A program made the position numbers and the translations under genes. DNA of 64,000 bases from Sipunculus nudus. Lineage: Eukaryota > Annelida > Sipuncula > Golfingiida > Sipunculidae. Numbering within the stretch: the first letter of the stretch is position 1; each line of letters begins with the position of its first letter. The stretch covers positions 57,522,300-57,586,299 of the forward strand of contig CM049314.1 of NCBI GenBank assembly GCA_026874595.1, in the 5' to 3' direction. Shown here one piece after another: positions 1 to 58,642 of this stretch. The notes below the pieces were generated by a model. That model worked only from the letters and a program-made list of their open reading frames with translations, was not told where the DNA came from and did no database searches.

Positions 1-283
1 TGACAGTTCTAATTATTACCATTTGGACCAAAGTTGATGAAGCTTCTCATAATACAACAAACTGGAAGGAATACAGTCGTGCAGGATACTCTGATGTTAT
101 GTATAATATATGCTTTATGTATCATTAATCTCAATATCTGGAGTAAAACTTTAAAGCGGATGCTTATGTTTCTTCTTATAATGTTCCACTACACCATAAA
201 GATAGATCGGTTTTGAAGTATTGAGTTGGTATCCCAAAAGTATGCCAGTTATTGTCTGGTATGTATCGCATGTGTTCCTTTGT

Positions 284-620
284 TCAGTATGAGAAAAACA
301 TTTTTTGGAGACGTGTGATCGATGGCGCTCTTTGAATGTTATATTCTGAGGAACCTACATATCTATTGACAATAACAAACATTGCCAATATAAATCCTAA
401 GATATCGAGACAGTAATATACGCCGTACAAATATATTTCCACAGGCATTCCTTTAACTGAAATGGCTGAAATGAGACTGGCGACCAAAGAGGCGGCTACA
501 GGGAACACCCCCCGTTTTCCTGTTTCTCATTAGGTATTACAAAGTGTTGTTTCCGCATTTATTTCGGATTGCATGGTAAATTCTATGACGGCGGTAATAG
601 CCAATGCTAAACCCAATACT
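284..620 (-). pseudogene. SLC5 sodium:solute symporter N-terminal exon remnant (in R1 copy a)
   Basis: Read on the minus strand, this resembles the first two or three membrane helices of SLC5-family sodium-coupled transporters. There is a helix-1 segment near 620-560 (D-W-L-V-L-G then A-I-S-A). It is followed by a second-helix segment containing FPVAASLVASLISAIS, then a G-M-P-V-E-I-Y-L-Y-G stretch, which corresponds to the family's PVA-S...SA...G-P-E-Y-G pattern. Relative to copy b, one extra C in the C-run near 510 shifts the frame. A stop lies between the helix-1 part and the helix-2 part. The rest of the roughly 600-residue family protein is absent, so this is a dead fragment. Confidence 0.7.
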
Positions 621-1568
621 AACCAGTCAACGCAGTGAAAGCCACGATGCCCATTCAAAGCCATTCTTAACCCTGTGAATAACCCACGCTCGACATATAC
701 TGACTGACAAAATCTAACATACCAGAGGCTATTGATGCATAGGTAGATAAAAAAGGCGAATATAAATGTTCGAGAATGGGAGCGAGGCGTATAATTAATG
801 ACAAGTATTCTAAAAACTGTCTTTACTCTGGTAAAATGTGTCTTGTTTCACACCTGCGTTACTTCCAGCTAGATCTAGATAAGTAAAAAGAATACTTTGG
901 TGATAGGTGTTTCACTCAGTTATGATTTATTGGTACATTTCTACAATTATTGCAACGAACTTGACTTTTGCAAACTGACCAAGGGCAGGTATGAATCGGA
1001 GAAAAAACCGTTCCTGAGCAACGCTTTTCAGCCAAGACAACATTATGAAGATTTAAGAGAGCTAGGTGGTAGAGTAAGCCAAAGACATAGCGATGCATGT
1101 AATGGATCTTTCTGATTATAGTAACTTATTATTAATATATATACTAGCTGCTCCCGTAGAAAATTCACGGCCTTATCTGGTGCATATTTTTGTAATGAGC
1201 TGATAGGAACTAAACGACGCATATTTTAATCCCAGGTTTTTGCAGGAACTTTTGTCATGTGTTTCACTTTTACGATATAAAGATTAATTCTGCTGGAATT
1301 CTTCAGGAACACCCTTCCGCAAAATATCAACACAGAAAGAAAAATTATTCTATTCCAGAAATCACACAAAAATAATTTTTTTTCCGATAAACAACAAAGG
1401 TCCGACAGCTTCATAGCTCGGGAAATATCGTAGATATAACGATCGTATAAAGAAGCATTCTACCGTGAAATAACATGAAAGATGCTTTGTATTAGTTGAA
1501 GCTCAGGCGATATGGTAAAACACGATGTTTATTCAGCGTAGTAAGTTGAGGGTATAGTCTAAGGCATG

Positions 1569-1799
1569 TTAACAGACACATGCGTTATTTGTATACACAC
1601 GCATATTTCGTTGAAGTCTCTTGTACGCAAAAGGTATAGCTGCCAATTTGAAAAAGATAGGCCAAGAAAAATATATTCCAACAGTATTCAATTTTTTATT
1701 TATGTACTGTAAATTGTCATGGAATAAGCAGGTCTGATGCAAAACTGACAACTCTCCCAGATAAAAAGAAAGCAGGTTGATATATTTTGATGAAGGCAT
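1569..1799 (-). other. Conserved unrecognised ORF in R1 copy a
   Basis: An ORF of 76 residues that is kept open in three R1 copies (here, 53,126-53,356 and 29,983-30,291). It has one hydrophobic stretch containing I-Y-F-S-W-P-I-F-F. I do not recognise the family. It could be an exon carried along with the SLC5-like remnant or chance conservation within a recent repeat. Confidence 0.3.
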
Positions 1800-3908
1800 T
1801 TAGCATAGAAACCACTTCAGCCTTGGTTCGTTTCATTGACTTTCAGCAAATTAACGCAAAATGTAATGTACAGATTTTGCTAAAAATTTGTAGAGGGGTA
1901 GAGTAAAACTGCATCCGTAATCCATTACATTTTTGGAGGTAATCGGAATCACCATAATAATTTTTTTCTTCAGTGCCATAATCATAATTCCATAAAGGAA
2001 TAATTATAAGGGGCTATTTCTTTGTCCCCGAGTAGAAGCCGCCCATTCGTTTGCAGTTGTTCTGTCATTCGCCTGTTTCTAAACCATGACAATGTTTTAC
2101 ATAATACGTGCACATATGAACGAACGACTAATTAGTAGATCTCTAATTAGAGATTGAGGACCCTTAGACGTGTGTGCAATCCGCCGCCCTCCTCTCCTTT
2201 CCAGGTCATCCTTTTAAAACTTTTTTCAAACAACCCATAAACCCGCCGAACTAAAAAAAACAATGGTTATCATGGAAAGATACTTCTGAATGTATAAAAA
2301 TCAACATACCTGTAAACCTATTAAAGGGTGATCGTGTAAAGGGGCCACTCAACGGAAAAATGCTCCCTATAAAAAGATTCATGTGGACATGAGTTCCGCG
2401 CTTGAATTTAAAAACTTTACTTCCTTTTGACAGAGTATAATTCCTTAACAGGCGATATAATGGACATGGGGTCAGTAGGGATTACAGGTCGCCTCCAGAA
2501 AAAGCGTGACAGGCGACAAATGTTTTGCTGAACATTTGTGGAGGGTAAGGGTAAAGACATATCAATAGTCCATTTCATTTTGAGGTAATAAGAATCACCA
2601 CAATATATATTTTCTTATAAACCGTTATAACAGGACCATTCCTTTTTCCCCGTGTGGAAGCCACCCATTCGTATTTATTTATTCTGCCACGCGCAAGGTG
2701 ATCTCGTGTTACTAAGCATGGCAGTGTTCACTCATGAAACGCATACACGTGAACACATGAATGATATTAAAGAAGATTCTGATGGAGGTCTGTACGCCCT
2801 GACTAGAGATTCTAGTTTGTTATCAATTTAAAGATGTACTGGTGATATTTCTTCATGTTTCACCGTCCCTGCAGACAACGGATCTTAACAAATATATGTG
2901 ACCCCCCCCCCACCCGATTGATAATTAAGTTGTGGGGCTTCTTTTAAAAAAAAAAAAACTTCATAAAACACATGACATGGTCGAACATTTGAAACCATGG
3001 TTATCATGGAAAGATATTTCTGAATGAATAAAAACAACATACCTGTAACCCATAAAAATTTGTCAAACGGTGGTCGTCACCTCACTGGACTCAGTGTTAA
3101 GTGTTGACCAAACTAAAAAGCCCTCGAATTGAAAGCAGAGTCATGTGGTCTTTGGATTAAACACCTTTTCTACCTTTTGAGAGAGACAATGGACTTGGGC
3201 GATCATTGGGGATTATGGTCGACCCGCGTGACCGCGCATTGCACGAAATGCCTTTTGGGCAGGACATGCGCTGTGGCCCCGGTCTTAACAGGCCAGTGAA
3301 AATCCCCGAGGCGCCTCCTGAAAAAGCGTCACAGGCGTGGAGGGCCTTGCAGCACAAAAGAAACAGGGGCATCTAATGGGGAAATATGAAATTTATAAAT
3401 ATTTAGCTTAATAGGACAATCCCACAAAATAAAACAAACTTGTCCTAGAAGAGCACACCACCGATACGTCTGCCGAATTTGGAGAGTCAAATCAGAACGG
3501 TAGCAAGTAAACCGTGGTCTAGAAAAATCCGAACTCCGTATTAATTATATAGGTAATACCTATTATTAAGGAATTTAGACCGGTATGTTATGCAGCGACT
3601 TTAGACCTGGGTGCTATGCACTGATTTTATACAAAACTATTATGTAGTGACTTTATACCAGACCTTTTACATCTGAGGCCAGATGAAGGATTATCGTACA
3701 TGTGGCTGCTATTATCACTGACACAGATCCGTAGCAGGATACGATGTCAGTAATGACGTATAACGTTAACAAGAGCTTACATTGCTGTTCAGTAATGGTT
3801 ATTAAACCATGTGTTCACAAACTTAATCATTAAATAACCACGATAATATGAAGTAATGCTCTACTACTTGACATGTATTGTACTTGGCGTGAACACAAAA
3901 CCTTCGTT

Positions 3909-4180
3909 TGCCTGACGTTGCACGTCAAACTAGTCAGAAAATTAGAATAGTAATGTGTGGAAATAACAACATCAAATATTTTTTAGGTGTAAGTCAAAGG
4001 CCGGTGGGACTAATAAACCCTCAGCGTTGAACACACAACATAGTTAAGTTTATTCAAAGCTACAGTTCGCCATGTCGGCACATTTACAAGTTATTTGCTA
4101 ACATATTCACCAACCTGGTGATAAGTTACTATAATCAGACAGATCAAGTACATGCATCGCTATGTGTTTGGCCTACTTAT
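3909..4180. other. Unassigned spacer
   Basis: This spacer sits between the broken end of R1 copy a and the inverted cytokine-exon block. I see no coding, RNA or repeat signal in it. Confidence 0.4.
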
Positions 4181-4287: not shown

Positions 4288-4396
4288 CTGGATCTTCATG
4301 ACATGCCAGAGCAATGCCACCTTCCGACCTCTGTAACAAAAACACTCGTCAATCTGCCATTTCCAGCTTTCCTAAAATGTCCGGATTCCTCTCTTC
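4288..4396 (-). pseudogene. C' pseudo-exon of cytokine-like gene
   Basis: This is the inverted copy of exon 19,822-19,930. It has the same 109-base length, the same CAG acceptor and the same GTGATG donor. It contains an in-frame TGA where the + strand copy has a glycine codon, in the segment after L-E-M-A-D. Several other residues differ (for example S-E-G-G for S-E-D-S), so the copy has drifted and is not functional. Confidence 0.85.
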
Positions 4397-4564
4397 CTGT
4401 CAAGTACACATATATGAGCAGCCTTGATTATCTAGACTTTTACAGTTGTTTAAAAGTCTTCCTTTAGGGGTTACACATACAACCTACAATTTAAATGTGA
4501 TATCACATGCCATTTTTTCTACTAAATGAACTAAGACTATTGCATTATAGTAGTTTACCATCAA

Positions 4565-4566
<2 letters not shown>

Positions 4567-4626
<60 letters not shown>
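4567..4626. repeat. (AT)n microsatellite
   Basis: About 30 uninterrupted AT units. It occupies the same place in the inverted block as the array at 19,572-19,621. Confidence 0.95.
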
Positions 4627-4628
<2 letters not shown>

Positions 4629-4775
4629 CAATATGCATGTAATACGTTTGATTGAATTGAGAAAGATTCTGAGTGAATAGCATATATCCTATAATTTGTG
4701 TAATCCGTTCAATATTATACATGGAAAAAAAGACGCGATAAAGGAGCGATAACAAAAACCAAAACCAATTCTTAC

Positions 4776-4918
4776 CTCTGTTACGATACCGGTATTCCTG
4801 AGCGAATCCTTAGAGACATTTGCCCGTATAACACGCCCACTAGCGACGTGATAAAGAACTACAGCTTGCCAGGTGCCGTCCCCAACCCGGTAGTCATAAT
4901 GATATATCTTGAAATTAT
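4776..4918 (-). pseudogene. B2' exon copy (beta-trefoil middle exon), inverted block
   Basis: It has the same 143-base length and phases as exon 19,280-19,422, with a CTTTCAG acceptor and an AG|GTAAGA donor. The frame is open and nearly identical: changes include N-F-K for N-F-Q and S-K-D for F-T-Y. The exon itself is intact, but it sits in a block whose next exon has a stop and whose last exon is missing. It is therefore classed with the pseudogene copy. Confidence 0.75.
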
Positions 4919-5422
4919 CTGAAAGATACATATAATGTTTTGCCCTTGAAACCAAGGGATTTTTTTCAGAGATTACTTGTCATTACTTAAAATGAATTTA
5001 CTTGATACAAATTATAAACATTTAGAAAGGTAATGAATGAATTGCACGGGTAGATGATGGGTTTTAGGGGATTTATATTGCTGCAATCCGCTATAGGTTA
5101 AAAGGCATTTTGAAACATTTAATAGGCCGAGAAGAGGGCAAGGAAATCCAATTAAATCCTCCCCCGAGTGTAAGGTCTATTTGTACTCCCAAGGCTGTGC
5201 CAAAACCTTATCGATATTATTAAAAGCTTATTATACATATGACTGCTGACTATTGTTATGAAGGAAATGCAACTTTACTGCAGGAACCTGTTGTAACCGG
5301 GGTTTTACTCAGGCACAGGAAAGTTTTAGCATACGAAATGCTCAACAACACAGATTACATTTCTAGCATACGAAAGAGTTCTTCTCCCACTAACACTTCA
5401 CGTAAACAAATTATAAAGACAC

Positions 5423-5676
5423 ATCAAAAACTGTCAACAGACCAGATCCTTCTGACCAAATAACGAAATGGTAATTGCCTTCGCTGCTCGGGTTTTTGTC
5501 TTCAGCAACTAGCTTGTTTTCCCGGACATTTAGAACCAATGGCTGTCCGTTTCTCCCTGAACAGGTAAGTGTCGCCATCTCGCGACCGGAAACACCTATC
5601 ATCGGCCACACGTTAAACTAGTGCGAGAAATTTTCAACACAGATCCTATGCCTGCTGTCAAGAGTAATGAACGTGT
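5423..5676 (-). pseudogene. B1' exon copy, inverted block
   Basis: This is the inverted copy of 18,528-18,781, with the same TTTTTGCAG acceptor. The part from M-I-G-V-S-G onward is almost identical, with one change (E-G for E-R) near the end. The upstream part has TAG where the + strand copy has a tryptophan codon. Either the upstream part is untranslated in both copies or this copy is dead. Confidence 0.7.
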
Positions 5677-6627
5677 CTGCAAAAAGTTAATTTAAATAAT
5701 GATATAGGGACTATTTTCTGGTGCCCTCAAAAACTAGATTAAACATAAGGCTATCTTGTCATCACCCAGATACATTAACTGCTTGTATATTTCTCCAAAG
5801 CAGTTATATTTCCAAATACTATTATCTAATTACAAGTGTTTTACACATGTGTTGATGACCTTCATGTGGTTAATACATCTGCAATGTTACAGTTTATTGT
5901 GAAGTGACATTAATTTGTTGGTTAGCTGGTCAGATATTCTTTCCAATCCTAGTAGCTCAGCTGCATGGTAATCATTAATACCATTATATTGCATTATATG
6001 TACTCACCGGGCCGGGCAACAAGTTCCAATTTGACGTCACTTCCGCTTCTTCTGAAGAAGTAGAGTAAATTCTTGGGCTGAACACTCCACGTTCTATGCA
6101 AGTCGTGGCAACCGACTTTTACGGGAATACATTAAAACTACTCTCGACAGCCATTCATATATTACAAAAAAAGTGAAAAAAAAAACTTTTTCATGATGCT
6201 AAGTTATCTGAAGTTCGATTAATAACAATATATAGGTGTATTAAGATAGGTTAAGAAGAATGTTCACAGAGAGTTTATATTTTGAGGGAATAGCTAATTC
6301 GGAACAAATATGTCTCTGTTCCAAAGTGCACCTTTCAAAGTAATATCATTGATGCCAACTGTGGTATCGGTATTGGCCAACATATTAAGATGAATGGCGG
6401 GATCTAGGAACATGCTGTTACCGAATAAAGACTTACTTACACTTTGCATTACAAATTATACAGAAATTATCATCAAATTAAAGATCTATGAACGACCTAT
6501 AAAGACCTGAAACCTATAAACGTGTTTTGAATAATTCACATTTTGTCGCCTGAGTACGAATACTGTCCTGTCACATACTGCACAAGAATCGATAATGATC
6601 GATAATAATTGGACATCACTTCATAAT

Positions 6628-6631
<4 letters not shown>

Positions 6632-6662
<31 letters not shown>
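6632..6662. repeat. (AT)n microsatellite
   Basis: A short AT array at the end of the inverted R1 3' segment. Confidence 0.9.
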
Positions 6663-6666
<4 letters not shown>

Positions 6667-6870
6667 TCTGCTCTCAATCAAACGCAAATACACAGTTTCG
6701 TATGCACACAACTGATATGATCTATATAAGGTTACTCAAAGCAAATCTGGTACATATTTGTGGGAAAAGAAGGTTTTGTGTTCACGCCAAGTACAATACA
6801 TGTCAAGTAGTAGAGCATTACTTCATATTATCGTGGTTATTTAATGATTAAGTTTGTGAACACATGGTTT
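6640..6870 (-). repeat. R1 3'-end fragment, inverted
   Basis: Reverse complement of R1 3' sequence also seen at 9,690-9,900 and 55,350-55,575. The last ~100 bases are also the reverse complement of 3,800-3,908. It is the part missing from copy a, now on the far side of the inverted cytokine-exon block. Confidence 0.8.
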
Positions 6871-6901
6871 AATGATTGATTGTGCAATCTATAAAACGAT
6901 G

Positions 6902-9401: not shown

Positions 9402-9462
<61 letters not shown>
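9402..9462. repeat. (AT)n microsatellite
   Basis: About 30 AT units at the left edge of the R1 3' fragment. Confidence 0.95.
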
Positions 9463-9465
<3 letters not shown>

Positions 9466-9906
9466 CCTGTTATTCAGGAATTTAGCCCGGTGTGTTATGC
9501 AGCGACTTTAGACCTTGGTTCTATGCACTGATTTTATACAAAACTAATATGTAGTGACGACTTTAAACCTGAGGCAAGATGAAGGATTATCGTACATGCG
9601 GCTTCTTGTACACTGACACAGACCCGTAGCAGGATGTCAGTAATGACGTATTACGTTTACAAGAGCTTACAGTGCTGTTCAGTAATGGTTATTTAATCAT
9701 GTGTTCACAAACTTAATCATTAAATAACCACGATAATATGAATTAATGCTTTAGTACTTGACATGTATTGTACTTGGCGTAATCAGATAAAGTTCTTTTC
9801 CCACAAATATGTACCAGATTTGCTTTGAGTTACTTATATAGATCATATCAGTTGTGTGCATACTTAACTGTGTATTTGCGTTTGACTGAGAGCAGAATTT
9901 ATATAT

Positions 9907-9974
<68 letters not shown>

Positions 9975-10947: not shown

Positions 10948-11121
10948 TCAGATAATACCATTGCCAAGTGCTTCTGTACAGTGTTTGATCAAGCCGTTAC
11001 AACAAAAAATGCAAGTCTGTCGATCGGTTACTTCTGTGATTCATGGAGCCATGAAATGTGGGAAGGATTTTATCAAGAGCCCTGACGACGATGATGTTGA
11101 AATGATTGTGCCGACGGAGAA
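10948..11121 (+). CDS. Cytokine-like gene, exon A1 (acidic pro-region)
   Basis: This exon has a pyrimidine-rich acceptor (TTTCTCAG) and an AA|GTAATT donor in phase 2. The partner base of the next exon restores a lysine codon. It encodes about 57 residues with four Cys and an acidic patch, S-P-D-D-D-D-V-E, just before the start of the trefoil core. IL-1-family cytokines usually carry a pro-region that is removed by protease cleavage, often after Asp. The Asp cluster here is a possible cleavage region, but that is inference. The start is uncertain, because the frame is open back to 10,889 and acceptors at 10,939 and 10,952 also exist. A second frame is open across much of the exon. Confidence 0.5.
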
Positions 11122-11465
11122 GTAATTTTCACTGATTCTGCGAAAATTTTTAATAAATATTTTATCTTGATTCGCACAATATTTAATGTTAGCGTAAAAA
11201 TCTGAAGCATATTTTTCACGTTTGTACTCTCGTACACATGCGTTTAAGAAAAAAATGAAACAAACGTGCAGCAAGTAACATTAGAATTCCTTTGTTATTG
11301 AAATTACTTATAAAAGATTTATAACGTTGTCATTGTTGTAAATTAAACAAAAAGGGAGAGAATATAGTTTAAGCATACGATCTTGAGATGTAAGGTAGTC
11401 CATGATTTAGATATTATTTCATACAAGTGTATTTAATATGTAATAAACAAACCTTTCAACTGCAG

Positions 11466-11599
11466 GATTGAAGCTCCACGTGATTGTTTGGAGAGGTACA
11501 CGGTGTATATGCAAGACAAGGAATCTCATCTTTACTGGGAAGCGGACGGCAATGGACAGATATTAATGACATCCCTCGACTTCGCAAACATTAAAAAGT
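11466..11599 (+). CDS. Cytokine-like gene, exon A2 (beta-trefoil strands 1-3)
   Basis: The acceptor is ACTGCAG and the donor AAGT|GTGAGT. The entry phase is 2, matching exon A1, and the exit phase is 1. It encodes 44 whole codons containing Y-T-V-Y-M-Q-D, then H-L-Y-W-E-A-D-G-N-G and I-L-M-T-S-L. This is a beta-hairpin pattern like the first strands of IL-18 and IL-1 (short strand, 'x-L-x-x-x-x-G-x' turn, strand). The exit phase fits all three candidate middle exons (12,365, 18,528 and 19,280), giving a tyrosine at each junction. There is no second copy of this exon in the window. Protein identity is inferred from pattern, not from a search. Confidence 0.6.
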
Positions 11600-12364
11600 G
11601 TGAGTAAACGGTATAATCAATTCTATAAAAAGCTAACTGTATATGAATTTTGACTTTCCTGAGAAATGGTAATATTATATGTCTTCAGATGTGACTGATT
11701 TACCCAATGTCTGTCCTCTTTCCTTTCAATAGAGCAGTTTCTGGGACCGATCCTTCCTCATTAAGATTAAATGACGAAAATGGGTAAACTTGTTTTAATA
11801 TTTCTTGTCCTGATTAAAATATTCACAAAACGTTTAACCCGTTGAGACCGATGTTCACTATATCAAATGGGTAAGTCAAATATATAGAAATTTTGAAACT
11901 GAAAATATAGCATTTTAAGCGAGTGTAGGAGTACACAATGATAGAGTGATAGTGTAAGCATAAGTTGCACTTACATTGCAACATATCATTAGTTGTCCAT
12001 ATTGTGAATTAATTATAATTAATGTAAAATAGTGTTCCGATAATCATCATAAACATTGGCATAACCATAATATGCGAATCCAACTTGTGTAATGGAATTT
12101 GCAACTTCTCATTTAAATGAGACGGTAAGAACTAGTTTTCAGTTGTTTTATAATGATTGTTTGTATGACACGATATCTAATGGAGCATTAATAGTTGGCA
12201 TCCGTTAGAAAGCACTGGAGGTGACTTCTTTGACTAACTTAATGACATTCTCGATCAATTTCACTTTCAAGGCATTTTTAATTTATACTATTGATACTAT
12301 GGTTGTTTATAAAAAGTGATAAACCTATTACGTGAACTACTGACTGAACGTCGTAATATTTCAG

Positions 12365-12492
12365 ACCGTTTTCGGCTGTTTGTCTATCGTTACAACAAAG
12401 GTAAACATCCAGCAGTGGTGGTTATATCTACAACTGACGGGAGCAATCAGTATGTAGACATACCGAACTCACATCATAATCTTAAGTTAAAG
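12365..12492 (+). CDS. Cytokine-like gene, exon A3 (alternative middle exon)
   Basis: The acceptor is AATATTTCAG and the donor TTAAAG|GTAAGG; it enters in phase 1 and leaves in phase 0. It encodes 42 codons (F-R-L-F-V-Y-R-Y-N-K-G then P-A-V-V-V-I-S-T-T-D-G). The pattern corresponds to trefoil strands 4-6 and aligns residue for residue with exon 19,280-19,422, for example F-R-L-F-V-Y-R-Y with F-Q-I-Y-H-Y-D-Y and P-A-V-V-V with Q-A-V-V-L. The two are diverged paralogues with the same phases, as expected of mutually exclusive alternative exons. Alternatively, this may be the relic of a neighbouring gene copy whose last exons were lost. Confidence 0.6.
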
Positions 12493-12662
12493 GTAAGGCT
12501 GTCGCATTCTGTCCAAATAAACAGGTAAAAATATATGCTAAAAGATAATTTTTGGAGAGCAGTAGAATGCACCAAATTCGTACCTGGTCGTGACCAGTAA
12601 GTCGGAGATGTTTATTAAAATGTATCGACATACACCTATATTCTTTTCAATGGGTTCTTGTC

Positions 12663-12905
12663 ACAATTATGAAGTGATGTCCAATCATTATCGATCATTA
12701 TCGATTCTTGAGCAGTATGTGACAGGAGATGTATGCGTACTAAGGCGACAAAATGTGAATTTTTCAAAACAGGTTTATAGGTTTAAGGTCTTTATAGGTC
12801 TTAATAGGTCTTTAATTTGATGATAATTTCTGTCATATTTGTAATGCAAAGTGTAAATAAGACCTTATTCGGTAACATCAGGTTCCTAGATCCCGCCATT
12901 AATCT
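12663..12905 (+). repeat. Left part of the duplicated block, split by a transposon
   Basis: Reverse complement of about 6,395-6,620. It continues at 17,736 on the other side of the inserted element. Confidence 0.85.
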
Positions 12906-12908
12906 TAA
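12905..12908. other. TTAA target site, left copy
   Basis: TTAA immediately precedes the terminal inverted repeat. The second copy is at 17,732-17,735. The inverted duplicate at about 6,395 has a single TTAA at this position. Confidence 0.85.
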
Positions 12909-13218
12909 AGTCCAAGTCTCAGCACGGAGGTCGATTAGTGTCATATGCCCGATTTCTATGTATCAAAACACGATGTTATGTCCATTTAACATTAATCTAG
13001 CAATTGAATCAATTAATACGACAATTTGAAACTGGCGCGCCGAATACACTCCGGAAACTGCCGAAAGCCAAGGGGGAAACCGTGACGTCACGTGTGGAAG
13101 TCGTCTCACACAAGCATCATGGCGGTGATGCAAAGTAAACAATCCGATGAAACTTCCTATGCGTAAGTAACAACCAAGCGTCCACCGACTATGGTTCAAA
13201 ATAAGTTATTTCGGAAGT

Positions 13219-13414
13219 ATGTCAGAAAGTGATTGTAGTGATGTAGAATTTGAAAATCCTTGAGATATTGAACCATTTCGATCTGAGCCATTGGCTCGAC
13301 GAGGCGAGATCGAAGGAGGGTGTACCGAGTCTGACAGTGACAGCCGTGTCAACAAAGAATCCGATGAACCGTCTCGGGCGTCTATGGGAGCAGGCACCAA
13401 TGACTGGTAATTAT
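13219..13414 (+). pseudogene. Acidic N-terminal part of a P2X7-tail-like gene remnant
   Basis: The frame begins M-S-E-S-D-C-S-D-V-E and continues with Ser/Asp/Glu-rich sequence (E-S-D-S-D-S-R) to A-G-T-N-D-W at a TG|GTAATT donor-like site. One in-frame TGA breaks it near 13,261. In many invertebrate proteins an acidic start followed by N-D-W-C precedes a Cys-rich domain like the P2X7 receptor C-terminus. The Cys-rich middle is not recognisable downstream. Confidence 0.4.
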
Positions 13415-13962
13415 TTTATTTTACTCTTACACTGAGTACATCTCAAGTTTCTGTAATTGGGGCAGGTTGATTATTACACTGAAATAAATATCGCTCAACC
13501 AACGCATGTAGCACTGAATGATTTATATGACAGTCATAGGTTTTCCTGGAAAGATGGGTCCCAGCTAGCCCGTTCCTGTGATTTATAAAAATGCCATTAC
13601 TTATCAGTCAGTGGTCATATCTTGTTGATTTAAGAACCATATTGAATAAGATCCTGGAGCAAAAACCAATCTTGCAGTGTATTTATTATCTGAAAATCTT
13701 TATTTTGAAAAAATACTGATGTACCAAATATTAAAGTTGTCGTTTGACAAGTGACTAAATGTGAATTCTCAACCTGGATGCTATTAAAATTGTAAAATTA
13801 TTTTTACAATACTAATAATGATAACATTATAAAATTTATACTTTTTATTAAAAAATTAAATTTTCACTTTTATTTTTGCACATGTTACATGCACATATAT
13901 ATAATTATTAAATATTTAAAAAAGAATAATTTTGCAAATACTAGATATATACTAGTAATATT

Positions 13963-14180
13963 CAGGGGCGGATCCAGGATTTAGAAAAAGGGGGCATCTC
14001 CAGGATTTAGAAAAAAAGGGGGGGGGTCCAACCCAGGAGGACAAATGAAAACCCTAAAAAAATGGTCCTCAGGTCTGAAAAAGGGGGGGCCAGGCAGCAA
14101 TTTTAGGTCTGAAGCCTTTTAAAAAAACGTTGTTTCTGATGAAAAAGGGGGGGGGTCCGGACCCCCTGGTTCCGCTTCTG
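13963..14180. mobile_element. Short inverted-repeat element (MITE-like) nested in the transposon
   Basis: Begins CAGGGGCGGATCCAGGA and ends with the near reverse complement (reads CAGAAGCGGAACCAGG inward). A 5-base ATATT flanks both sides as a possible target duplication. The interior is G-run rich with no ORF. It is non-autonomous; the CAGGGGCGGA-type end resembles hAT-like MITEs of marine invertebrates. Confidence 0.6.
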
Positions 14181-14570
14181 ATATTTACAGATCTTTTATG
14201 CATTCCAATAGCCTTGCAAGGGTTATTGTTTTCACTCAATTCTCCGTGTGTGCAGGGGTGTCAATATAGGTAGGAGTGGGGGGGGGGGGGCAGGGATATA
14301 TATCCCCCACTCTTTTTGGCAAGAAGGAAAAGAATGGTCAGTGTAATCACCCCCCCCCCACCACCACACACACACTTTTCTGAGAATATATTAAATTTTA
14401 CAAATGAAATATATTAATTAATTGAATAGTAAACTTTTGTTCAATTTACGATCTTATATATGCCTTTTTTCTAACTTTGATTATCCTCCCATGCCTGTCA
14501 TCCCCCCTCCAACCTTGCGTATCATATCAACACCCTGCAAATCACCCCTCCCCCCATCCTTGAAGCCAGT

Positions 14571-14593
14571 GTGTGTGTGTGTGTGTGTGTGTG
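14571..14593. repeat. (GT)n microsatellite
   Basis: About eleven GT units within the transposon. Confidence 0.9.
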
Positions 14594-14792
14594 CAAGGTA
14601 TCTTAATAATTGCATTACAGATGTTATTGCAGTTTTACATATAGATCAGTTAAGTGAAAATCTCAGGTGATTTCATTTTGGTGTAAATTCAACTCTGGGG
14701 TTAATGGTTTATGGAGTTTTATAGCTTATTTGTTTACACCTAAGGACATATGTAACCAGATGAACCTATATATGGCCATCTTTGGAGTGTAG

Positions 14793-15060
14793 TCATGATG
14801 TCACTCCACATGCCAATCCCCTCAAAGGTGTCAGTAAATCTTCATACAGCAAGGCAGACCAAGTTTGTTGTTCATTGTGTTTATAGCCAAGGGCAGCTAT
14901 ATCCCAATGTCCAGGGGTGATTTTCAAAATAATCTGAGTGGAAAAAAAGTTCCCAGGAATAACACAGGTTAATTTACATTTCAGAACACTACCTCTGAAC
15001 ATAATCTTCCACTCAGGACATGCATCCCCAATCAGACACTTTTTAATTTTTCTTTAATCA
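14793..15060 (-). pseudogene. Unrecognised coding-like remnant within the transposon
   Basis: The minus strand reads without a stop for about 90 codons. It starts K-K-C-L-I-G-D-A-C-P-E-W-K and continues through V-I-P-G-N-F-F-S-T. The composition is protein-like, with several Cys and Trp. It may belong to the transposase gene whose THAP-like start lies further along the minus strand at 17,410. I cannot place it in a family. Confidence 0.3.
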
Positions 15061-15111
15061 TCCTTTGAGATATTGACATTACTTATGATACACAGCATGA
15101 CTTTTTGTAGG

Positions 15112-15290
15112 AAATACAGATACACCACATTCAGGCAGCAGGTTTGATGGAACTGGGGATTCCTTGGAAGACACATCAGGATACCACTACCAGCATGTGC
15201 AGTGAAAAGGATTGAGCAGGCATTTATGTCACATGATGGGACATAACTTTATAAAGGGTTCAGATGCCCTAGATGGAACTGATGGGTGTT
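15112..15290 (+). pseudogene. P2X7-receptor C-terminal-domain-like remnant
   Basis: The + strand reads R-K-Y-R-Y-T-T-F-R-Q-Q-V, stop, W-N-W-G-F-L-G-R, then R-I-P-L-P-A-C-A-V-K-R-I and, after another stop, Y-K-G-F. This is the order R-Y-x-x-Y/F-R-Q...W-x-x-G-x-L-G...R-x-x-x-P-x-C-x-V-x-x-I-R...Y-x-G-F. It is typical of the cytosolic P2X7-like domain found in many invertebrate genes unrelated to channels. Two stops show it is dead. Together with 13,219-13,414 it is probably one decayed gene carried by, or caught in, the transposon. Confidence 0.6.
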
Positions 15291-16189
15291 CATCCTTGAG
15301 CACATTGATGATATCTTAGTTGATAAGATGTAACAATGAACTTCATTATTTCAGTGCACAAGATCTTACACCACAATTATTAGAGCATATTAAATCAATT
15401 CTTGCAGTCAAATGCACACATATCCTGTATAATAGCAGTAATCAAGTTTTTACAATTACAAGATGCAGAAATGGAGCCTTCAAGTCCATGTGCACAATGT
15501 TGTGTTTGAGCTCAAGTTTACCAGCAGGCATCTGGCGAATATAAGTTTGATTCCGCCACTTCTTGTGCAGGTTACAGTTGTTGCATATCTCGCTTACCTG
15601 GACTGCTGTTCCTTAACAAGAATCACCCGATCGTGTGTACAAGATGTGCTGTTTGGACAGATGCTAAACAACTCCATCAGTTGTGAGTGGAATAAAATAA
15701 ATTTGGCACTTGATCTCGGTGTATTTCTTCATATAAGCTAATGCTTTTGGACCATAAAGGTCCTTAAATAGGGCCACGCAGTCAAAAATATCCTCAAATC
15801 CAAACCCTGATGCCATATTGGATATCACATTGGCCTGAAACTTATCACCCCAAATAACCTGAATGGGATCTATATTCAGAAAATTTCTAAAAGATTACTT
15901 AGATGAGGCATTAAGAGGTTCTTAAGGTACATGTATGTGCTTGGAAGCTGCATTGGATTTGGATTTATAGGAATGATGGATGGACCAAGGACTGATGGAC
16001 AGACATCAAGGCAATTATTCTTGAGCGGAGCCTGAATAAAGTCAGTCAGCATGAACAGATTGAATAAACTTATCTCATTTTCTTTACTTCATATTTATAT
16101 ACTGATATAAGAAAAATCTATAATAAATATCAAATTTATAAAGATTAAATATTTAACAATAAGTTCATTGAAGGATGAATCGGTATCAT

Positions 16190-16310
16190 AATCTTCATCA
16201 TCAGAAGGGAAGTATTCATCATCTTTATAAACTGGTGGTGCTTCATCATCATCATCATCATTATCATCTGCTTCTTCTTCTTCACTGAAGATCTGCTATC
16301 TTCTGTATTT
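16190..16310 (-). pseudogene. Acidic low-complexity segment of the transposon's minus-strand gene
   Basis: The minus strand reads S-E-E-E-E-A-D-D-N-D-D-D-D-D-E-A-P-P and then Y-F-P-S-D-D-E-D-Y-D in one open frame. The DNA is a run of ATC/TTC triplets, so simple-repeat expansion is an alternative. It lies downstream of the THAP-like start on the same strand. Confidence 0.35.
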
Positions 16311-16453
16311 TGGCCGACCAGAGCTTCACCAATCAGTGAGCACTGGACACCAGCATTTTTTGTGGATACATTCACTGGGCAACCTGAATTTGAAACAATA
16401 TGCCATTTTCATTGATTTCCAGGACAACTGAAAGATAACTTTTTCATTTGTAA

Positions 16454-16455
<2 letters not shown>

Positions 16456-16524
<69 letters not shown>
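16456..16524. repeat. (AT)n microsatellite
   Basis: About 34 AT units inside the transposon. Confidence 0.95.
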
Positions 16525-16525
<1 letters not shown>

Positions 16526-16974
16526 TAACATAACTTTTCATAAGATCTGTTCACACAATATTCATAGTATTTATGCTTTATTAAAATAAAATTGTGCATG
16601 TGAAATAATATAGGGTAAATAAGGCAAAACGTCACAACTGTAAGCATTAAATGATTATTTAAATCAGAGTGGCCACTGTAATTTGTTAACAAACAATGGG
16701 GGTTATGTACACACCCCTTGACGCACCCCTAATTTGCTGGCTGACTGCCAGGCGATTTGGCAGGAGTGGTGGGTGTTCACAGGTTTCCCTGGAACAAAAG
16801 GGCATAATCCCAGCTTAAAAAAATGCAACAACTTTGCACTAGGCCTCGGAGTAGATTAAGCACAAAAACCGTGTTTACATGGGCGATAATAAGATATATT
16901 CAAATCACGTAATAATTGCTCAAAATTTAAAATATATAAATAACTTTCCCTTTTAGCAGTCAATTTACTCACAG

Positions 16975-17410
16975 TTATCAGGTGGAGCCCTTTTCTTGTG
17001 ACCTAGCAGGCTTCACACCTTTTCCCAGCGAGTACCTCGGGCGCTTGGCGGCGTTATATTGTCCCGGCCCTTGACTGAAGTTGAAGCAAGGCTGGATCCA
17101 CTCTCAGTCGGCCTTGCAGCGGGTTCTTGTGGATTTATACTCGGAATTGCCCCTTGTATCAGATCTAGTTGTTTTCTTAAATATCCGGCTTACCATTGCT
17201 GATAGTTTTTAAAATCGTCAGGAATCCGGAATTGTGCCCCATACATGACACTGGAAAGTTTTGCAAGGAGTTCCCGACCTACAATCGGCTCGTCCCTGTC
17301 TGACAGGTCCCACTTTTTTTCCTTAAACGTACGTCTTTCGGCCAATTGTGGACGTTCACACTATCCTTGTTGGTATTATTGCATCCACTAAGAACATCTC
17401 GCTTCGTCAT
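16975..17410 (-). pseudogene. THAP-like N-terminus of transposase remnant
   Basis: From the ATG at 17,410 on the minus strand the frame reads M-T-K-R-D-V-L-S-G-C-N-N-T-N-K-D-S, then V-H-N-W-P-K-D-V-R-L-R-K-K. This follows the THAP zinc-finger start (C-x-x-x-G-C-x-N...h-x-F/W-P-x-D...R-x-x-W), except that the first zinc-binding Cys is Asp. A frame change then leads into W-D-L-S-D-R-D-E-P and about 90 further residues with a stop. The missing Cys and the broken frame argue for a non-functional gene. THAP domains occur in Kolobok and P-element transposases. Confidence 0.55.
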
Positions 17411-17731
17411 TTTGATACTGTGTAAGATCTACAGTGTTTGTCGAGGGGAAAAAACACGGCAGTCAAGGATGCAGACCGGCAAGACGCGGCATGTTGACCC
17501 ATGTGATGTTTACCCAGCGGTGCCACACGTGACGTCACTGAAGCCACGCCCACCGCGTATCACCGAGTGCACCTTTACACTCAGGAGCGTGATCACCGTG
17601 ATGTTTCACGGATAAAATGGAGCATAAATTCGATCTCGTTCAGCTTGAAACTGTGTTGTAAGCACTGTATTAACTTATTAAAAGGGTACATGACGCTTTT
17701 TTAACTTATAAAAGTGCATGAAACTTGGACT

Positions 17732-17735
17732 TTAA
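17732..17735. other. TTAA target site, right copy
   Basis: The second TTAA lies directly after the right inverted repeat, and block homology to 6,390 resumes here. Confidence 0.85.
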
Positions 17736-18527
17736 TATTTTGGCCAATACCGAAACCACAGTTGGCATCAATGATATTACTTTGAAAGGTGCACTTTGGA
17801 AAAGAGACATATATGTTCCGAATAAGTTATTCCCTTCAAATATAAACTCTCTGTGAACATTCTTCTTAACCAATCTTAATACACCTATAAATTGTTATTA
17901 ATCGAACCTCAGATAACTTAGCATCCTGACAAAGTTTTTTTTTTGCTTTCTGTTGGTAATTTTTTAAATGATAATAAATTTCTATTAAATCTAATCAATC
18001 AATAAGACCTCGGCTAATGTTTTCAAAATAACAAAACATTGGTTATTATATGAATAGCTGTCGAGAGTAGTTTTAATGAATTCCCGTAAAGGTCGGTTGC
18101 CGCGACTTGCATAGAACGTGGAGTGTTCAACCCAAAAATTTACTCTACTTCTTCAGAAGAAGCGGAAGTGACGTCAAATTTGAACTTGTTGCCCGGCCCG
18201 GTGAGTACATATAATGCAGTATAATGGTATTATTGTTCACCATACAGCTAAGCCACTATGATTGAAGAGAATATCTGACCTGCTAACCAAAAAATTAATG
18301 TCATAATAATCTGTAACATTGCAAATGTGTTAACCACATGAAGGTCATCAACACATGTGTAAAACTCTTGTAATTAGATAATAGTATTTGGAAATATTAA
18401 CTGCTTTGGATAAATATACAAGCAGTTAATGTATCTGGGTTATGACAAGATAGCCTTATTTTTAATCTAGTTTTTGAGGGTACCAGAAAATAGTCCCTAT
18501 ATCATTATTTAAATTAACTTTTTGCAG

Positions 18528-18793
18528 ACACGTTCATTACTCTTGACAGCAGGCATAGGATCTGTGTTAAAAATTTCCCGCACTGGTTTAACGTGTGGCC
18601 GATGATAGGTGTTTCCGGTCGCGAGATGGCGACACTTACCTGTTCAGGGAGAAACGGTCAGCCATTGGTTCTAAATGTCCGGGAAAACAAGCTAGTTGCT
18701 GAAGACAAAAACCCGAGCAGCGAAGGCAATTACCATTTCGTTATTTGGTCAGAAAGATCTGGTCTGTTGACAGTTTTTGATGTATCTTTATAA
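18528..18793 (+). CDS. Cytokine-like locus, exon B1 (alternative or first exon)
   Basis: The acceptor is CTTTTTGCAG with phase 1 entry. The frame is open to a TAA at 18,791, with a weak GAT|GTATCT donor (phase 0) 10 bases before it. The sequence M-A-T-L-T-C-S-G-R-N-G-Q-P-L-V-L-N then K-L-V-A-E-D and H-F-V-I-W-S-E looks like trefoil strands 1-4 of an IL-1/IL-18-like protein. Three readings are possible: a third phase-compatible alternative exon between A2 and C; a 5' exon starting at M-I-G-V-S-G with an untranslated upstream part; or a terminal exon ending in F-D-V-S-L. The stop in the inverted copy's upstream part favours the second. Confidence 0.5.
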
Positions 18794-19279
18794 TTTGCTT
18801 ACGTGAAGTGTTAGTGGGAGAAGAACTCCTTCGTATGCTAGAAATGTAATCTTTGTTGTTAAGCATTTCGTATGCTAAAACTTTCCTGTGCCTGAGTAAA
18901 ACCCCGGTTACAACAGGTTCCTGCAGTAAAGTTGCATTTCCTTCATAACAATAGTCAACAGACATATGTATAATAAGCTTTTAATAATATCGATAGGCAC
19001 AGCCTTGGAATTACATATAGACCTTACACTAGGGGGAGGATTTAGTTGGTTTCCTTGCCCCCTTCTCGGCCTATTAAATGTTTTAAAATGCCTTTTAAAC
19101 TATAGCGGATTGCAGCAATATAAATCCCCTAAAACCCATCATCTACCCGTGTAATATGACATTCATTACCTTTTTAAATGTATATAATTTTTATCAAGTA
19201 AATTCATTTTAAGTAATGACAAGTAATCTCTAAAAAAATCCCTTGGTTTCAAGGGCAAAACGTTATATGTATCTTTCAG

Positions 19280-19422
19280 ATAACTTCCAGATATATCATT
19301 ATGACTACCGGGTTGGGGATGGCACCTGGCAAGCTGTAGTTCTTTATCACGTCGCTAGTGGGCGTGTTATACGGGCAAATGTCTTTACGTATTCGCTCAG
19401 GAATACCGGTATCGTAACAGAG
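19280..19422 (+). CDS. Cytokine-like gene, exon B2 (alternative middle exon)
   Basis: The acceptor is TATCTTTCAG and the donor CAGAG|GTAGGA; it enters in phase 1 and leaves in phase 0, exactly as exon 12,365-12,492 does. It encodes 47 codons (F-Q-I-Y-H-Y-D-Y-R-V-G-D-G-T-W then A-V-V-L-Y-H-V-A-S-G-R-V-I). The pattern fits trefoil strands 4-6. Joined to A2 it gives the same junction tyrosine as A3 does. Its 3' phase fits the next exon at 19,822. The inverted copy at 4,776-4,918 keeps the frame. This is the strongest evidence that the region codes for protein. Confidence 0.65.
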
Positions 19423-19570
19423 GTAGGAATTGGTTTGGTTTTTGTTATCGCTCCTTTATCGCAAGTCTTTTTTTCCATGTATAATATTGAACGGATAACA
19501 CAAATTATAGGATATATGCTATTCACTCAGAATCTTTCTCAATTCAATCAAACGTATGACATGCATATTG

Positions 19571-19571
<1 letters not shown>

Positions 19572-19621
<50 letters not shown>
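19572..19621. repeat. (AT)n microsatellite
   Basis: About 25 AT units in the intron after exon B2, also present in the inverted copy. Confidence 0.95.
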
Positions 19622-19623
<2 letters not shown>

Positions 19624-19821
19624 GCTTCCTTGATGGTTAACTACTATAATGCAATAGTCTTAGACAATTCATTTTGGTAGAAAAAATGGCATGTGATATC
19701 ACATTTAAATTGTAGGTTGTATGTGTAACCCCTAAAGGTGGACACGTAAACAACTATTACAGTCTTGTTTCATTAAAACATTTAAGATAATCAAGGGTGC
19801 TCATATATGTGTACTTGGCAG

Positions 19822-19930
19822 GAAGAGAGTAATCCGGACGCTTTAGGAAAGCTTGAAATGGCAGATGGACGCGTGTTTTTGTTACAGAGGTCAGAAGATA
19901 GCATTACTCTGGCATGTCATGAAGATCCAG
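19822..19930 (+). CDS. Cytokine-like gene, exon C (trefoil strands 8-10)
   Basis: The acceptor is CTTGGCAG and the donor CCAG|GTGATG; it enters in phase 0 and leaves in phase 1. It encodes 36 codons ending in V-F-L-L-Q-R-S-E-D-S-I-T-L-A-C-H-E-D-P. In IL-18 the corresponding region contains a strand with F-F-Q-R-S, followed by a strand and a turn, and the layout here matches. The open frame contrasts with the TGA-bearing inverted copy at 4,288-4,396, so this copy is the functional candidate. Confidence 0.6.
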
Positions 19931-20230
19931 GTGATGTTTTCCTTGTCAAATTGTAAAACAACTAAATGGATATTATGTAAAATACAAATAAGAGTACACT
20001 GAAGAATTAAATAGTGATAACATATTGCGTAATAAATACACAACACTGAATTAGTTTTGTAAATTATTATTAAATCGATACTCAATATTTAGATAATAAA
20101 AATGTAAGATTGCAATAAAAGATAGAAAACACTGTTGGACATTGAAACTTTCAAGACATTTATATTAGTATTATTTTAGATTTTTTCAAGAGATATGTTC
20201 ATAAAAGCTCTTATTGAATATTTATTTCAG

Positions 20231-20568
20231 ATATGTGGCTCGCCGTTCAATTGCAGTTACAGTCCGGCGTTCACCCGGTCATTGTGACATCAAGAACCTC
20301 ACGAAACCAAAAAGCTCACTTTCAATTTACAAAGCTTCAGAGATCCAAGAGTAAGAAAAAGCGAAGGTTTCTTCAAAGAAGACACTGTGTCAGAAGATCA
20401 CAACGTATGTATGGTCATGGCTCAGTTATAAACCCATCTATTCAGGATAAGGCGCCGGTACGGTCCCAGGATTTGTTAGAAAATGTCAAAATCTCACAAC
20501 AGCCGCAATGGTGTCATGGCTATTCCTCTTTAACTCCCCGCCGTGGGGCACTTTTAGTTCGGAGTTAA
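20231..20568 (+). CDS. Cytokine-like gene, last exon D with basic C-terminal extension
   Basis: The acceptor is TTATTTCAG, with phase 1 entry matching exon C and TAA at 20,566-20,568. The first 35 residues (W-L-A-V-Q-L, H-P-V-I-V-T-S-R, H-F-Q-F-T-K-L) follow the end signature of IL-1-family trefoils: Trp-hydrophobic pair, P-V-x-L-T, then F-x-F. A 76-residue tail follows, starting with the strongly basic K-S-K-K-K-R-R-F-L-Q-R-R. It resembles a nuclear-localisation or glycosaminoglycan-binding patch and is not part of a usual IL-1 fold. The core A2+A3/B2+C+D is about 159-164 residues, the usual mature size for the family. A divergent FGF-like trefoil is the main alternative. Confidence 0.6.
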
Positions 20569-21294: not shown

Positions 21295-22320
21295 CTTTGA
21301 CCTTAGAACCAGGGTAAACTTTCATTGAAATGGCACTTTTACTGAATGGTCTGAAATTTTATCTTAAGAATTACTACTAGGTACCATAATGACAAACCCC
21401 TAAGTATTCAACATTTCACCTAAAAACAATCCCGTAGACGTCCTGTGCAAATGGAACTTTTCTTCTAGGACGGAACTTTTAGTCCTGACCGACACTAACA
21501 TCCGTGACGATGAAGCAAGCATTAAATGTTTGAAAGGCTTAAAGTGGCTCCTGATGTGTCACAATGAAATCAAGATAAGTTATTTTGAGGAATAAAACTG
21601 CTGCTTTTAATTGAGAGAACATTCCTTTAAATCCAGAGAACAATCCTTGAAGGCAAAACACTTTTGAATTTACGTGATCTGCATACCCTGATATATTTGA
21701 TATTGCGGAACAACCATATAAGTGAGTGTATTACGTCAGGTAGTACTGGTTGGATCCACGAGGTTCTGTATTTAGACTTGAGTTATAACCGCCTGGTCCT
21801 TCATCTGGATTTTGAATATTTTCCGAAAAATCATTCTGTTCTTCATAATCCGCTCTTTTGTGGCTTTAGAGTCAGATCATTAGAGAAAAGATTAAGCAGG
21901 CATGTATCAGCGGCCTGCAAAATACCACGAGAAAAGGCTAATGGCAAATCGGACATGTGTTCATATACGTTTCAAAATAAATTGAGAGCCAAAATACCGC
22001 TAAGGTGTGATCTACCTGAAAATGAACCATTAAATGAGTTATACAATCTGTATAACAACGGAACCATTGTGGTATTTGCCGTTATCGGTGGACCAGATAT
22101 TCAAATAAATATGACGACACCGGACAATAACTTAGATATTTATCAGCATCCCTTTTCGAAAAAGGTGTTTTTAATTGTCACTATACCAGGGTTAAATATT
22201 TATCAGCATCCCTTTTCGAAAAAGGTGTTTTTAATTGTCACTATACCAGGGTACCATGAAGACGAGTATATATGTTCTGAGCGGACTCAATTTAGCCGAG
22301 AAGAGGTGACCAGCAAGTGA
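21295..22320 (+). pseudogene. Leucine-rich-repeat receptor-like pseudogene, copy 1
   Basis: The upstream part (21,455-21,595) still reads L-V-L-T-D-T-N-I and L-K-W-L-L as in the copy at 58,643, but it is broken by a frameshift and stops. From 21,664 a 218-residue frame is open. It holds one LRR (L-I-Y-L-I-L-R-N-N-H-I), a second (L-Y-L-D-L-S-Y-N-R-L), then a Cys-containing capping region (N-P-L-F-C-G; further Cys near residues 85, 98 and 115) as in extracellular LRR proteins. An N-glycosylation-type N-G-T follows. The frame ends after a 20-residue tandem duplication, with no membrane segment. The missing first half and the damage indicate a pseudogene. Confidence 0.7.
22132..22251 (+). repeat. 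In-frame 60-base tandem duplication
   Basis: Two 60-base units at 22,132-22,191 and 22,192-22,251 differ at one base (L-D-I-Y versus L-N-I-Y). The duplication adds 20 residues to the LRR frame without breaking it. Confidence 0.95.
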
Positions 22321-40166: not shown

Positions 40167-40607
40167 ATGCGTAGCGATGATATTCAGAGGACGACGTCAC
40201 CTCACGGTTGGTATGCCACAGGCGACATGGCCTCGAAGAACGACATTGGTCATATCAAGATCGAAGTCAGATATGTTGATATAATAAAACGGGCCACGAT
40301 AACGATATCTCCAGCAGAAGTTGAAAATATAATTTGTGAACATCCTGATATTTCTGCCATTCAAGCAATTGGCGTCCCCAGGGAACGACTAGGAGAAGAG
40401 CTTTACGCGTGCGTGATTCCGAAGCAGAGCAGCACGGTGAAGGAAGCAGACTTGTTGGATTGGTTTGCTGGAAGATTCGGAGATTCCAAAGTTGGACATT
40501 ACAGAGCCCCGAAGTATGTGGAAATATTTGAAGATTCTCCACGTCTCCCCACTGGAAAGATGTCGAGAAAAGAATTGAAAGCAAATGTTCTTGCTAGTTT
40601 TAAATGA
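40167..40607 (+). pseudogene. C-terminal fragment of acyl-CoA synthetase-like gene
   Basis: A 146-residue frame matches residues ~418-550 of the intact gene at 49,299 at high identity. It includes G-W-Y-A-T-G-D-M-A-S, I-K-R-A-T-I-T-I-S-P-A-E-V-E and R-L-P-T-G-K-M-S-R-K with the catalytic lysine. Just upstream is a stop, and the whole AMP-binding N-domain is missing. A CTTTAG acceptor-like site lies 17 bases before the ATG, so an exon of a distant gene cannot be excluded. The G-R-K motif is changed to V-R-Y. Most likely it is a truncated duplicate. Confidence 0.75.
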
Positions 40608-51293: not shown

Positions 51294-51634
51294 CAGATTA
51301 GATAGGTACTCGGTACTTTAAGCGTATATTGAATTCCCTTATCGTTTACTTAGCAAAAAGGAGAAATAAGATACAAAAATATTATATATGTTCTGAAAAT
51401 ATAATTTATTTGATCTATTTTATCAAAACTGGATTTGTTCAGCTCTAGGATTTAGAGACAGATTAGATAGGTATTCGATACTTTAAGCGTATACTGAGTT
51501 ACCTTATCGGTTACATAACAAAAGGAGAAATACGATACAAATCATATAGATGTTCTTAAGATAAAATTTGATTTATTTTATATTATACCAATAAATTAAT
51601 TACACTTGATTTGTTCAGCTCTAGGATTAAGAGA
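51294..51634 (+). repeat. ~170-base tandem duplication downstream of the ligase
   Basis: Units 51,294-51,458 and 51,459-51,634 share CAGATTAGATAGGTA, TTTAAGCGTATA and GATTTGTTCAGCTCTAGGAT. The second unit runs directly into R1 copy b. Confidence 0.85.
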
Positions 51635-51909
51635 CAGTTCTGATTATTACCATATAGACCAAAGTTGATGAAGCTTCTCATAATACAACAAACTGGAAGG
51701 AATACAGTCGGGCAGGATACTCTGATGTAATGTATAATATATGCTTTATGTATCATTAATCTCAATAACTGGAGTAAAACTTTAAAGCGGAAGCTTATGT
51801 TTCTTCTTATAATGTTCTACTACACCATAAAGATAGATCGGTTTTGAAGTATTGAGTTGGTATCCCAAAAGTATGCCAATTATTGTCTGGTATGTATCGC
51901 ATGTGTTCC

Positions 51910-53125: not shown

Positions 53126-53356
53126 TTAACAGACACATGCGTTATTTGTATACACACGCATATTTAGTTGAAGTCTCTTGTACGCAAAACGTATAGCTGC
53201 CAATGTGAAAAAGATAGGCCAAGAAAAATATATTCCAACAGTATTCAGTTTTTTATTTATGTACTGTAAATTGTCATGGAATAAGCAGGTCTGATGCAAA
53301 ACTGACAACTCTCCCAGATAAAAAGAAAGCAGGTTGATATATTTTGATGAAAGCAT
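53126..53356 (-). other. Conserved unrecognised ORF in R1 copy b
   Basis: A 76-residue frame, nearly identical to the copy at 1,569-1,799 and similar to the one at 29,983. No family is recognised. Confidence 0.3.
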
Positions 53357-58583: not shown

Positions 58584-58642
58584 ACAATTAATGCAGTAAC
58601 TCGTTATACGGGGTTTTCTCGCGAATTAAACCCTGATGCCAA

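Follow-up and report, generated by a model that had tools for sequence, protein, structure and literature searches.

The window examined here, a 64,000-nucleotide (nt) stretch of the genome of the sipunculan Sipunculus nudus (assembly GCA_026874595.1, contig CM049314.1, positions 57,522,300-57,586,299, forward strand), contains an eight-exon gene that belongs to an array of seven tandem copies. Its predicted and probably leaderless protein would consist of two head-to-tail domains, each of which is likely an interleukin-1 (IL-1)-like beta-trefoil. For this explanation taken as a whole, we see close to an even chance. The genome comprises 1,426,538,692 bases (1.43 Gb) in 153 contigs, and the window lies on contig 9.

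The exons, all on the forward strand, follow one another in the order A1-A2-A3-C1-D1-B2-C2-D2, and the strands assigned to them below were placed by alignment only. Exon A1 (11,009-11,121) carries the start codon and an acidic, aspartate-rich N-terminal region and ends in phase 2. A start at 10,948, given in a preliminary description of this DNA, has to be moved, since the first in-frame ATG of this exon is at 11,009; an in-frame stop lies 123 nt upstream of the ATG. Exon A2 (11,466-11,599; phase 2 in, 1 out) would supply strands 1-3 of domain 1, A3 (12,365-12,492; phase 1 in, 0 out) strands 4-7, and C1 (18,092-18,200; LLYFFRRSGSDVKFELVARP; 109 nt; phase 0 in, 1 out), the acceptor of which lacks a good pyrimidine tract, strands 8-9. 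Exon D1 (18,528-18,725; 198 nt; phase 1 in, 1 out) would complete domain 1 with strands 10-12 and then open domain 2 with strands 1-3. The remainder of domain 2 would come from B2 (19,280-19,422; phase 1 in, 0 out; strands 4-7), C2 (19,822-19,930; 109 nt like C1; phase 0 in, 1 out; strands 8-9), and D2 (20,231-20,568), which encodes the putative strands 10-12, a basic C-terminal tail, and the stop. In-silico splicing of the window copy gives a predicted two-domain product of 423 residues.

The junctions 11,121/11,466 (phase 2), 11,599/12,365 (phase 1), and 19,930/20,231 (phase 1), which the preliminary description had proposed, are present in the sequence, with GT-AG ends and compatible phases. 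Its five-exon model was incomplete, as C1 and D1 lie between A3 and B2 and eight exons are found in every one of the seven copies. The protein is probably made without a signal peptide: in a plain hydropathy scan (as opposed to a signal-peptide predictor) of copies 3, 4, and 6, the top 11-residue mean within the first 60 residues was about 1.0, with no strongly hydrophobic segment.

The array was delimited by a genome search with g1, a product in which D1 is read through as a terminal exon with its own stop (domain 1 together with the entire D1 frame). This returned 37 matches, which, between 57.42 and 57.93 Mb, correspond to at least seven gene places and at least three inverted pieces; the copy count comes from the g1 search only, and both counts are lower bounds. 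Exon order is identical in the seven copies, and all seven remain open after in-silico splicing (385-423 residues). Acceptors are AG in 49 of 49 cases and donors comprise 42 GT and 7 GC, the A1 donor in copies 4-7 having been picked so as to keep the frame. Exon size differs in A1 (longer in copies 4-7), the D2 tail (shorter in the same copies), and B2 (24 nt shorter in copy 5). Copies 1-3 are 53-54 kb apart and the later copies 59-137 kb.

The two-domain architecture turns on where exon D1 ends. Copies 3 and 4 are 83% identical over the last 60 bases of the D1 exon and only 27% over the 60 beyond, and D1 is conserved between the copy groups through ...GAAG, not further. The bases that follow are GCAATT in copies 1-3 (the GC-type 5' splice site of the D1-B2 intron, 18,726-18,731 on the forward strand of the window), GCAGGT in copies 4, 6, and 7, and GCAAGT in copy 5. 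All seven copies thus carry a phase-1 donor of the GC type, which takes its complete form, GCAAGT, in copy 5 alone; B2 is likewise entered in phase 1. Because this donor would join D1 to B2 in frame in 7/7 copies, D1 would end domain 1 and begin domain 2; trefoil 1 would be built from A2-A3-C1 and the first part of D1, and trefoil 2 from the second part of D1 with B2-C2-D2.

The preliminary description had pictured a single trefoil of about 160 residues (A2, A3 or B2, C, and D), with A3 and B2 as alternatives for one core. That picture gives way to a single predicted protein of 385-423 residues in which two domains lie head to tail, A3 and B2 each belonging to a domain of its own. Two candidate products were dropped because the seven copies show the D1 exon end, namely g1 and g2 (an alternative product made of A1-A2-B2-C2-D2); several of the similarity searches reported below used g1, g2, or parts of them. 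Block A3-C1-D1 agrees with block B2-C2-D2 in the phase at which it starts and at its inner ends (1-0, 0-1, 1-), and the length of 109 nt is common to C1 and C2. It is likely that a phase-matched exon block was duplicated to make the two domains. When the D1 donor is left unspliced, the frame runs to a stop at 18,791-18,793, and such read-through might yield a shorter form consisting of trefoil 1 and a short tail.

The gene family is constrained, and selection between its two groups of copies is purifying. Copies 1-3 are near-identical, the number of synonymous substitutions per site (dS) being 0.004-0.007, and may partly be a product of the assembly; copies 4, 6, and 7 differ from copy 3 at a dS of about 0.6, and the split into two groups could not be explained in this way. 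The ratio of non-synonymous to synonymous substitutions (dN/dS) between copy 3 and copies 4, 6, and 7 is 0.34, 0.32, and 0.34, respectively (378 codons; all three between-group comparisons made). Exon by exon, copy 3 against copy 6 gives 0.08-0.52 in all eight exons (A3, 0.08), and three comparisons within copies 4-7 give 0.23-0.29. Within copies 1-3 the values are 0.41, 1.10, and 1.37, with 5-6 changes each, and so are uninformative.

One way of assessing the nature of the domains is to search without any family set in advance. Among the 177,635 distinct sequences of the PDB set, g1 found three IL-1 alpha chains first (expectation value, E, 0.014-0.016), the match covering query residues 76-179, which belong to domain 1; as these chains are one protein, they count as one weak match, not three. 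A trimmed query gave IL-1 alpha at 0.015-0.017 and IL-36 alpha at 0.73 among eight matches, and a domain 1 profile from three copies gave IL-1 alpha first (0.082-0.099) and IL-36 alpha at 0.27, of 19 matches. As a yardstick, an IL-1 alpha fragment retrieved IL-1 beta chains with E-values of 0.004-0.2, a further one at 0.82, and IL-36RN at 0.55.

Directed comparison with IL-1 profiles points the same way. With an 11-member profile, g1 scores 22.7 bits and domain 1 alone 15.5, neither value being reached in 2,000 shuffles. When IL-18 is removed from this profile, IL-18 itself scores 22.7 bits and g1 20.8; when IL-33 is removed, IL-33 scores 8.8 bits and g1 17.6. Against the 1,635 stop-to-stop open reading frames (ORFs) of the window, the IL-1 profile places C1, D1, and their inverted copies at ranks 1-4 (E 0.014-0.065, with C1 at the top), and the next ORF has an E of 1.7. 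For the full protein of the window copy the score is 33.2 bits, with an E of 3.7e-7 for a set the size of PDB and no shuffle out of 1,000 reaching it; three stretches contribute, of which C1-D1 and C2-D2 align to the last part of the profile, as assigned (positions 90-137 and 85-153).

The introns are informative as well. The intron phases of the IL-1 beta gene are II, 0, I, I, 0, and its twelve strands are encoded by the last three exons, according to the available part of PMC4880838; the introns internal to its trefoil are, therefore, of phase 1 and phase 0. Both domains here likewise have internal introns of phase 1 (A2/A3 and D1/B2) and then phase 0 (A3/C1 and B2/C2). Those of domain 1 fall 2 and 4 alignment columns from the human IL1B positions, and those of domain 2, which is poorly aligned, 2 and 10 columns. 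In each domain the phase-1 C/D intron is an addition relative to the IL-1 pattern. FGF genes, too, carry a middle exon (104 nt) in the corresponding position, and their intron phases follow the same pattern. The introns consequently speak for a trefoil gene of the cytokine type but do not decide between IL-1 and FGF.

Several results weigh against an IL-1-like reading of both domains and should be kept in mind. First, no sequence match is seen between domain 1 and domain 2. Domain 2 (B2-C2-D2, with or without A1-A2, and as a profile) found no IL-1 chain in PDB, so that the preliminary description had chosen the weaker half as its core; the D1 open frame alone had no PDB match at all. In the search with the three-copy domain 1 profile, a nanobody (0.19) and 3C proteases (0.22-0.29) came close behind IL-1 alpha. 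The Pfam IL1 profile (PF00340), against which that description had proposed a check, was absent at E up to 10 from all five proteins scanned, with filters that drop weak matches. No homologue of g1 or g2 was found among 5.8 billion proteins (471 and 167 candidates; E up to 1 and 10) by a method that sees only relatives with common short words.

The directed tests also have their weak points. A 5-member profile without IL-1 alpha gave g1 only 5.8 bits (2 of 1,000 shuffles), although with the 11-member profile it kept 17.6. Exons A2, A3, B2, C2, and D2 are not among the best 11 of the 1,635 window ORFs. In the full protein, the D1-B2 stretch (residues 187-235) falls on profile positions 61-107, whereas the model assigns it to the first strands; the pseudo-threefold symmetry of a trefoil allows such slips, yet this misplacement still counts against the assignment. 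Copies 4-7 are weaker, full copy 6 scoring 12.8 bits (E 0.7) and its domain 2 only 5.2, a value reached by 1 of 1,000 shuffles. The A1/A2 intron is of phase 2, where IL-1 beta has phase 1 ahead of its trefoil.

Short motifs should be treated with caution. The segments WLAV, HPVIVT, FQF, and FLLQRS, on which the preliminary description had drawn, are all present, but the parallel it saw between FLLQRS and FFQRS of IL-18 involves a motif too short to count, and nothing singles out IL-18. The FES..PGWF region reads FELVARPDTFI in copy 3 and LELVARPGTFI in copies 4-7. On a 9-position IL-1 signature, copy 3 has 6/9 (IL-18 likewise) and copy 4 has 5/9 elsewhere; 28 of the 1,635 window ORFs reach at least 6, so the signature is not discriminating. 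The earlier IL-1-like reading gains support from the top PDB match of domain 1 to IL-1 alpha, the IL-1 profile ranks, and the intron phases. The sequence supports an IL-1-like trefoil, and the domains are likely of this kind; membership of the IL-1 family is not established by it.

A few further searches may be recorded here. A domain 2 profile gave a short repeated PDB match to eL13 (E 0.0017), which was taken as spurious. The Pfam IL1 profile had no match in the whole genome, and control genomes gave none either; the protein scans gave no match to Pfam FGF. The search of viral contigs provided no lead, and that of Rfam 0 matches.

The closest competitor holds that both halves are indeed beta-trefoils, though from a different or novel family (FGF-like, lectin-like, or intracellular), their likeness to IL-1 being general to such trefoils. 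The IL-1 profile does give FGF2 13.6 bits and FGF8 7.3 (FGF1, 2.0; FGF10, -1.3; FGF19, -2.0), and the hhalign probability of FGF against IL-1 (25%) is equal in closeness to that of domain 1 against IL-1 (28%). Domain 2 of copy 6 scores 5.8 bits with a 2-member FGF profile as against 5.2 with IL-1, and the intron places and phases of FGF genes are so alike that the introns need not favor IL-1. The preliminary description had named a better FGF match as grounds for abandoning its reading. With an 8-member FGF profile, this is not what was found: the six domains of copies 3, 4, and 6 score -1.6 to 3.6 bits and 5.2-19.6 with the IL-1 profile, each of the six preferring IL-1, and the PDB queries made with these proteins list no FGF chain up to an E of 10. 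We consider it unlikely that the halves belong to another trefoil family. Less probable still is a beta-rich, non-trefoil protein with a chance match to IL-1 alpha, for which speak the unbiased-search E-values of only 0.014-0.1, a domain 2 without an IL-1 chain match, the missing Pfam match, and one misplaced profile stretch of three, since the IL-1 alpha match is colinear over about 100 residues, IL-36 alpha turns up too, C1-D1 and C2-D2 each match the corresponding part of the IL-1 profile, and the intron phases agree.

If the two domains are IL-1-like trefoils, the gene may be a true IL-1 superfamily ligand outside the vertebrates, a tandem-duplicated, double-headed cytokine in which the two IL-1 trefoils of one chain bridge two IL-1R-type receptors. 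This is possible, though it falls clearly short of an even chance. By analogy with IL-1, the protein would be made without a signal peptide, kept intracellular behind its acidic N-terminal region, and released through cell damage or protease cutting. One molecule could then bind two Ig/TIR-type IL-1R-like receptors, one per trefoil, and lead to NF-kB-type signaling; two trefoils per chain would suit such receptor bridging.

Reviews agree with the preliminary description in treating IL-1 ligands as a vertebrate group: in the parts available, ligand genes are given as missing outside (jawed) vertebrates, IL-1R-like receptors as widespread in invertebrates, and the receptors as thought to predate the ligands by long (PMC9020223, PMC9382457). 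For invertebrates, the available text describes only IL-1-like activities without a gene (PMC9020223) and mentions antibody- or activity-based IL-1-like signals (PMC9756803, PMC9020223). Our literature search returned no report of an invertebrate IL-1 ligand gene among the matches listed. Were the reading as a ligand true, the origin of the IL-1 family would again be in question, given a gene under constraint and expanded in tandem that encodes two IL-1-like trefoils. The ligand would be older than the vertebrates, and the long-orphan invertebrate IL-1R-like receptors would gain a partner, with this gene as a concrete ligand candidate.

Besides the intact gene, the window contains a decayed inverted copy of C1-D1-B2-C2 on the reverse strand (4,288-6,116; pieces at 6,008-6,116, 5,411-5,676, 4,776-4,918, and 4,288-4,396), in which stops interrupt the D1 and C2 parts; no counterpart of A1-A3 or D2 was found at this place. 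A similar stop-bearing D1 copy adjoins copies 1 and 2 of the array. One repeat element (3,546-3,912, 6,623-6,873, and 9,453-9,940) flanks the inverted copy on both sides and recurs upstream of the gene. The start of the window (1-3,909) is found again 51.6 kb downstream, at 51,633-55,473, with 95-96% identity. In the A3-C1 intron, about 4.8 kb (12,909-17,731, forward strand) is absent from the inverted copy between matching ends, and this intron measures only about 0.9 kb in copies 4-7; the extra 4.8 kb or so is probably inserted mobile DNA.

The neighboring genes, all on the forward strand, are of other kinds. An intronless AMP-binding acyl-CoA ligase gene lies at 49,299-50,951 (Pfam E 5e-52), and a separate piece at 40,167-40,607 has only the C-terminal domain of such a ligase. 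Within the best 120 of 142 matches of the gene at 49,299-50,951, most of them nameless, the top-scoring relatives with an animal name both come from Nematostella (identities of 29% and 27%), and no vertebrate is named. Two leucine-rich-repeat gene pieces (21,404-22,320 and 58,637-59,227) look related by eye, with a Pfam match for the second only; the first has a 60-nt tandem duplication at 22,132-22,252 within its open frame.

Returning to the two-domain gene, its nearest known counterparts are cytokines and growth factors with a beta-trefoil fold. Fibroblast growth factors are beta-trefoil growth factors with similar intron places and phases, and are set apart from the six domains by the low scores of the latter with the 8-member FGF profile and by the PDB searches, in which no FGF appears. 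IL-18 and IL-33 resemble the gene in the level of their similarity, their left-out scores of 22.7 and 8.8 bits standing beside the full-profile 22.7 of g1 and 15.5 of domain 1 alone, with no particular link to IL-18. The likeness extends furthest in the case of IL-1 alpha, IL-1 beta, and IL-36, which include the best PDB matches of domain 1, share trefoil introns of phase 1 and 0, and have no evident signal peptide and a region ahead of the trefoil. The gene described here differs from them in the extra phase-1 C/D intron of each domain, in the phase of the A1/A2 intron, and in a similarity below family level, with no Pfam IL1 match. It differs above all in its architecture, which to our knowledge is new to the IL-1 family: by gene model, all seven copies would encode two tandem domains, and not one trefoil per protein.

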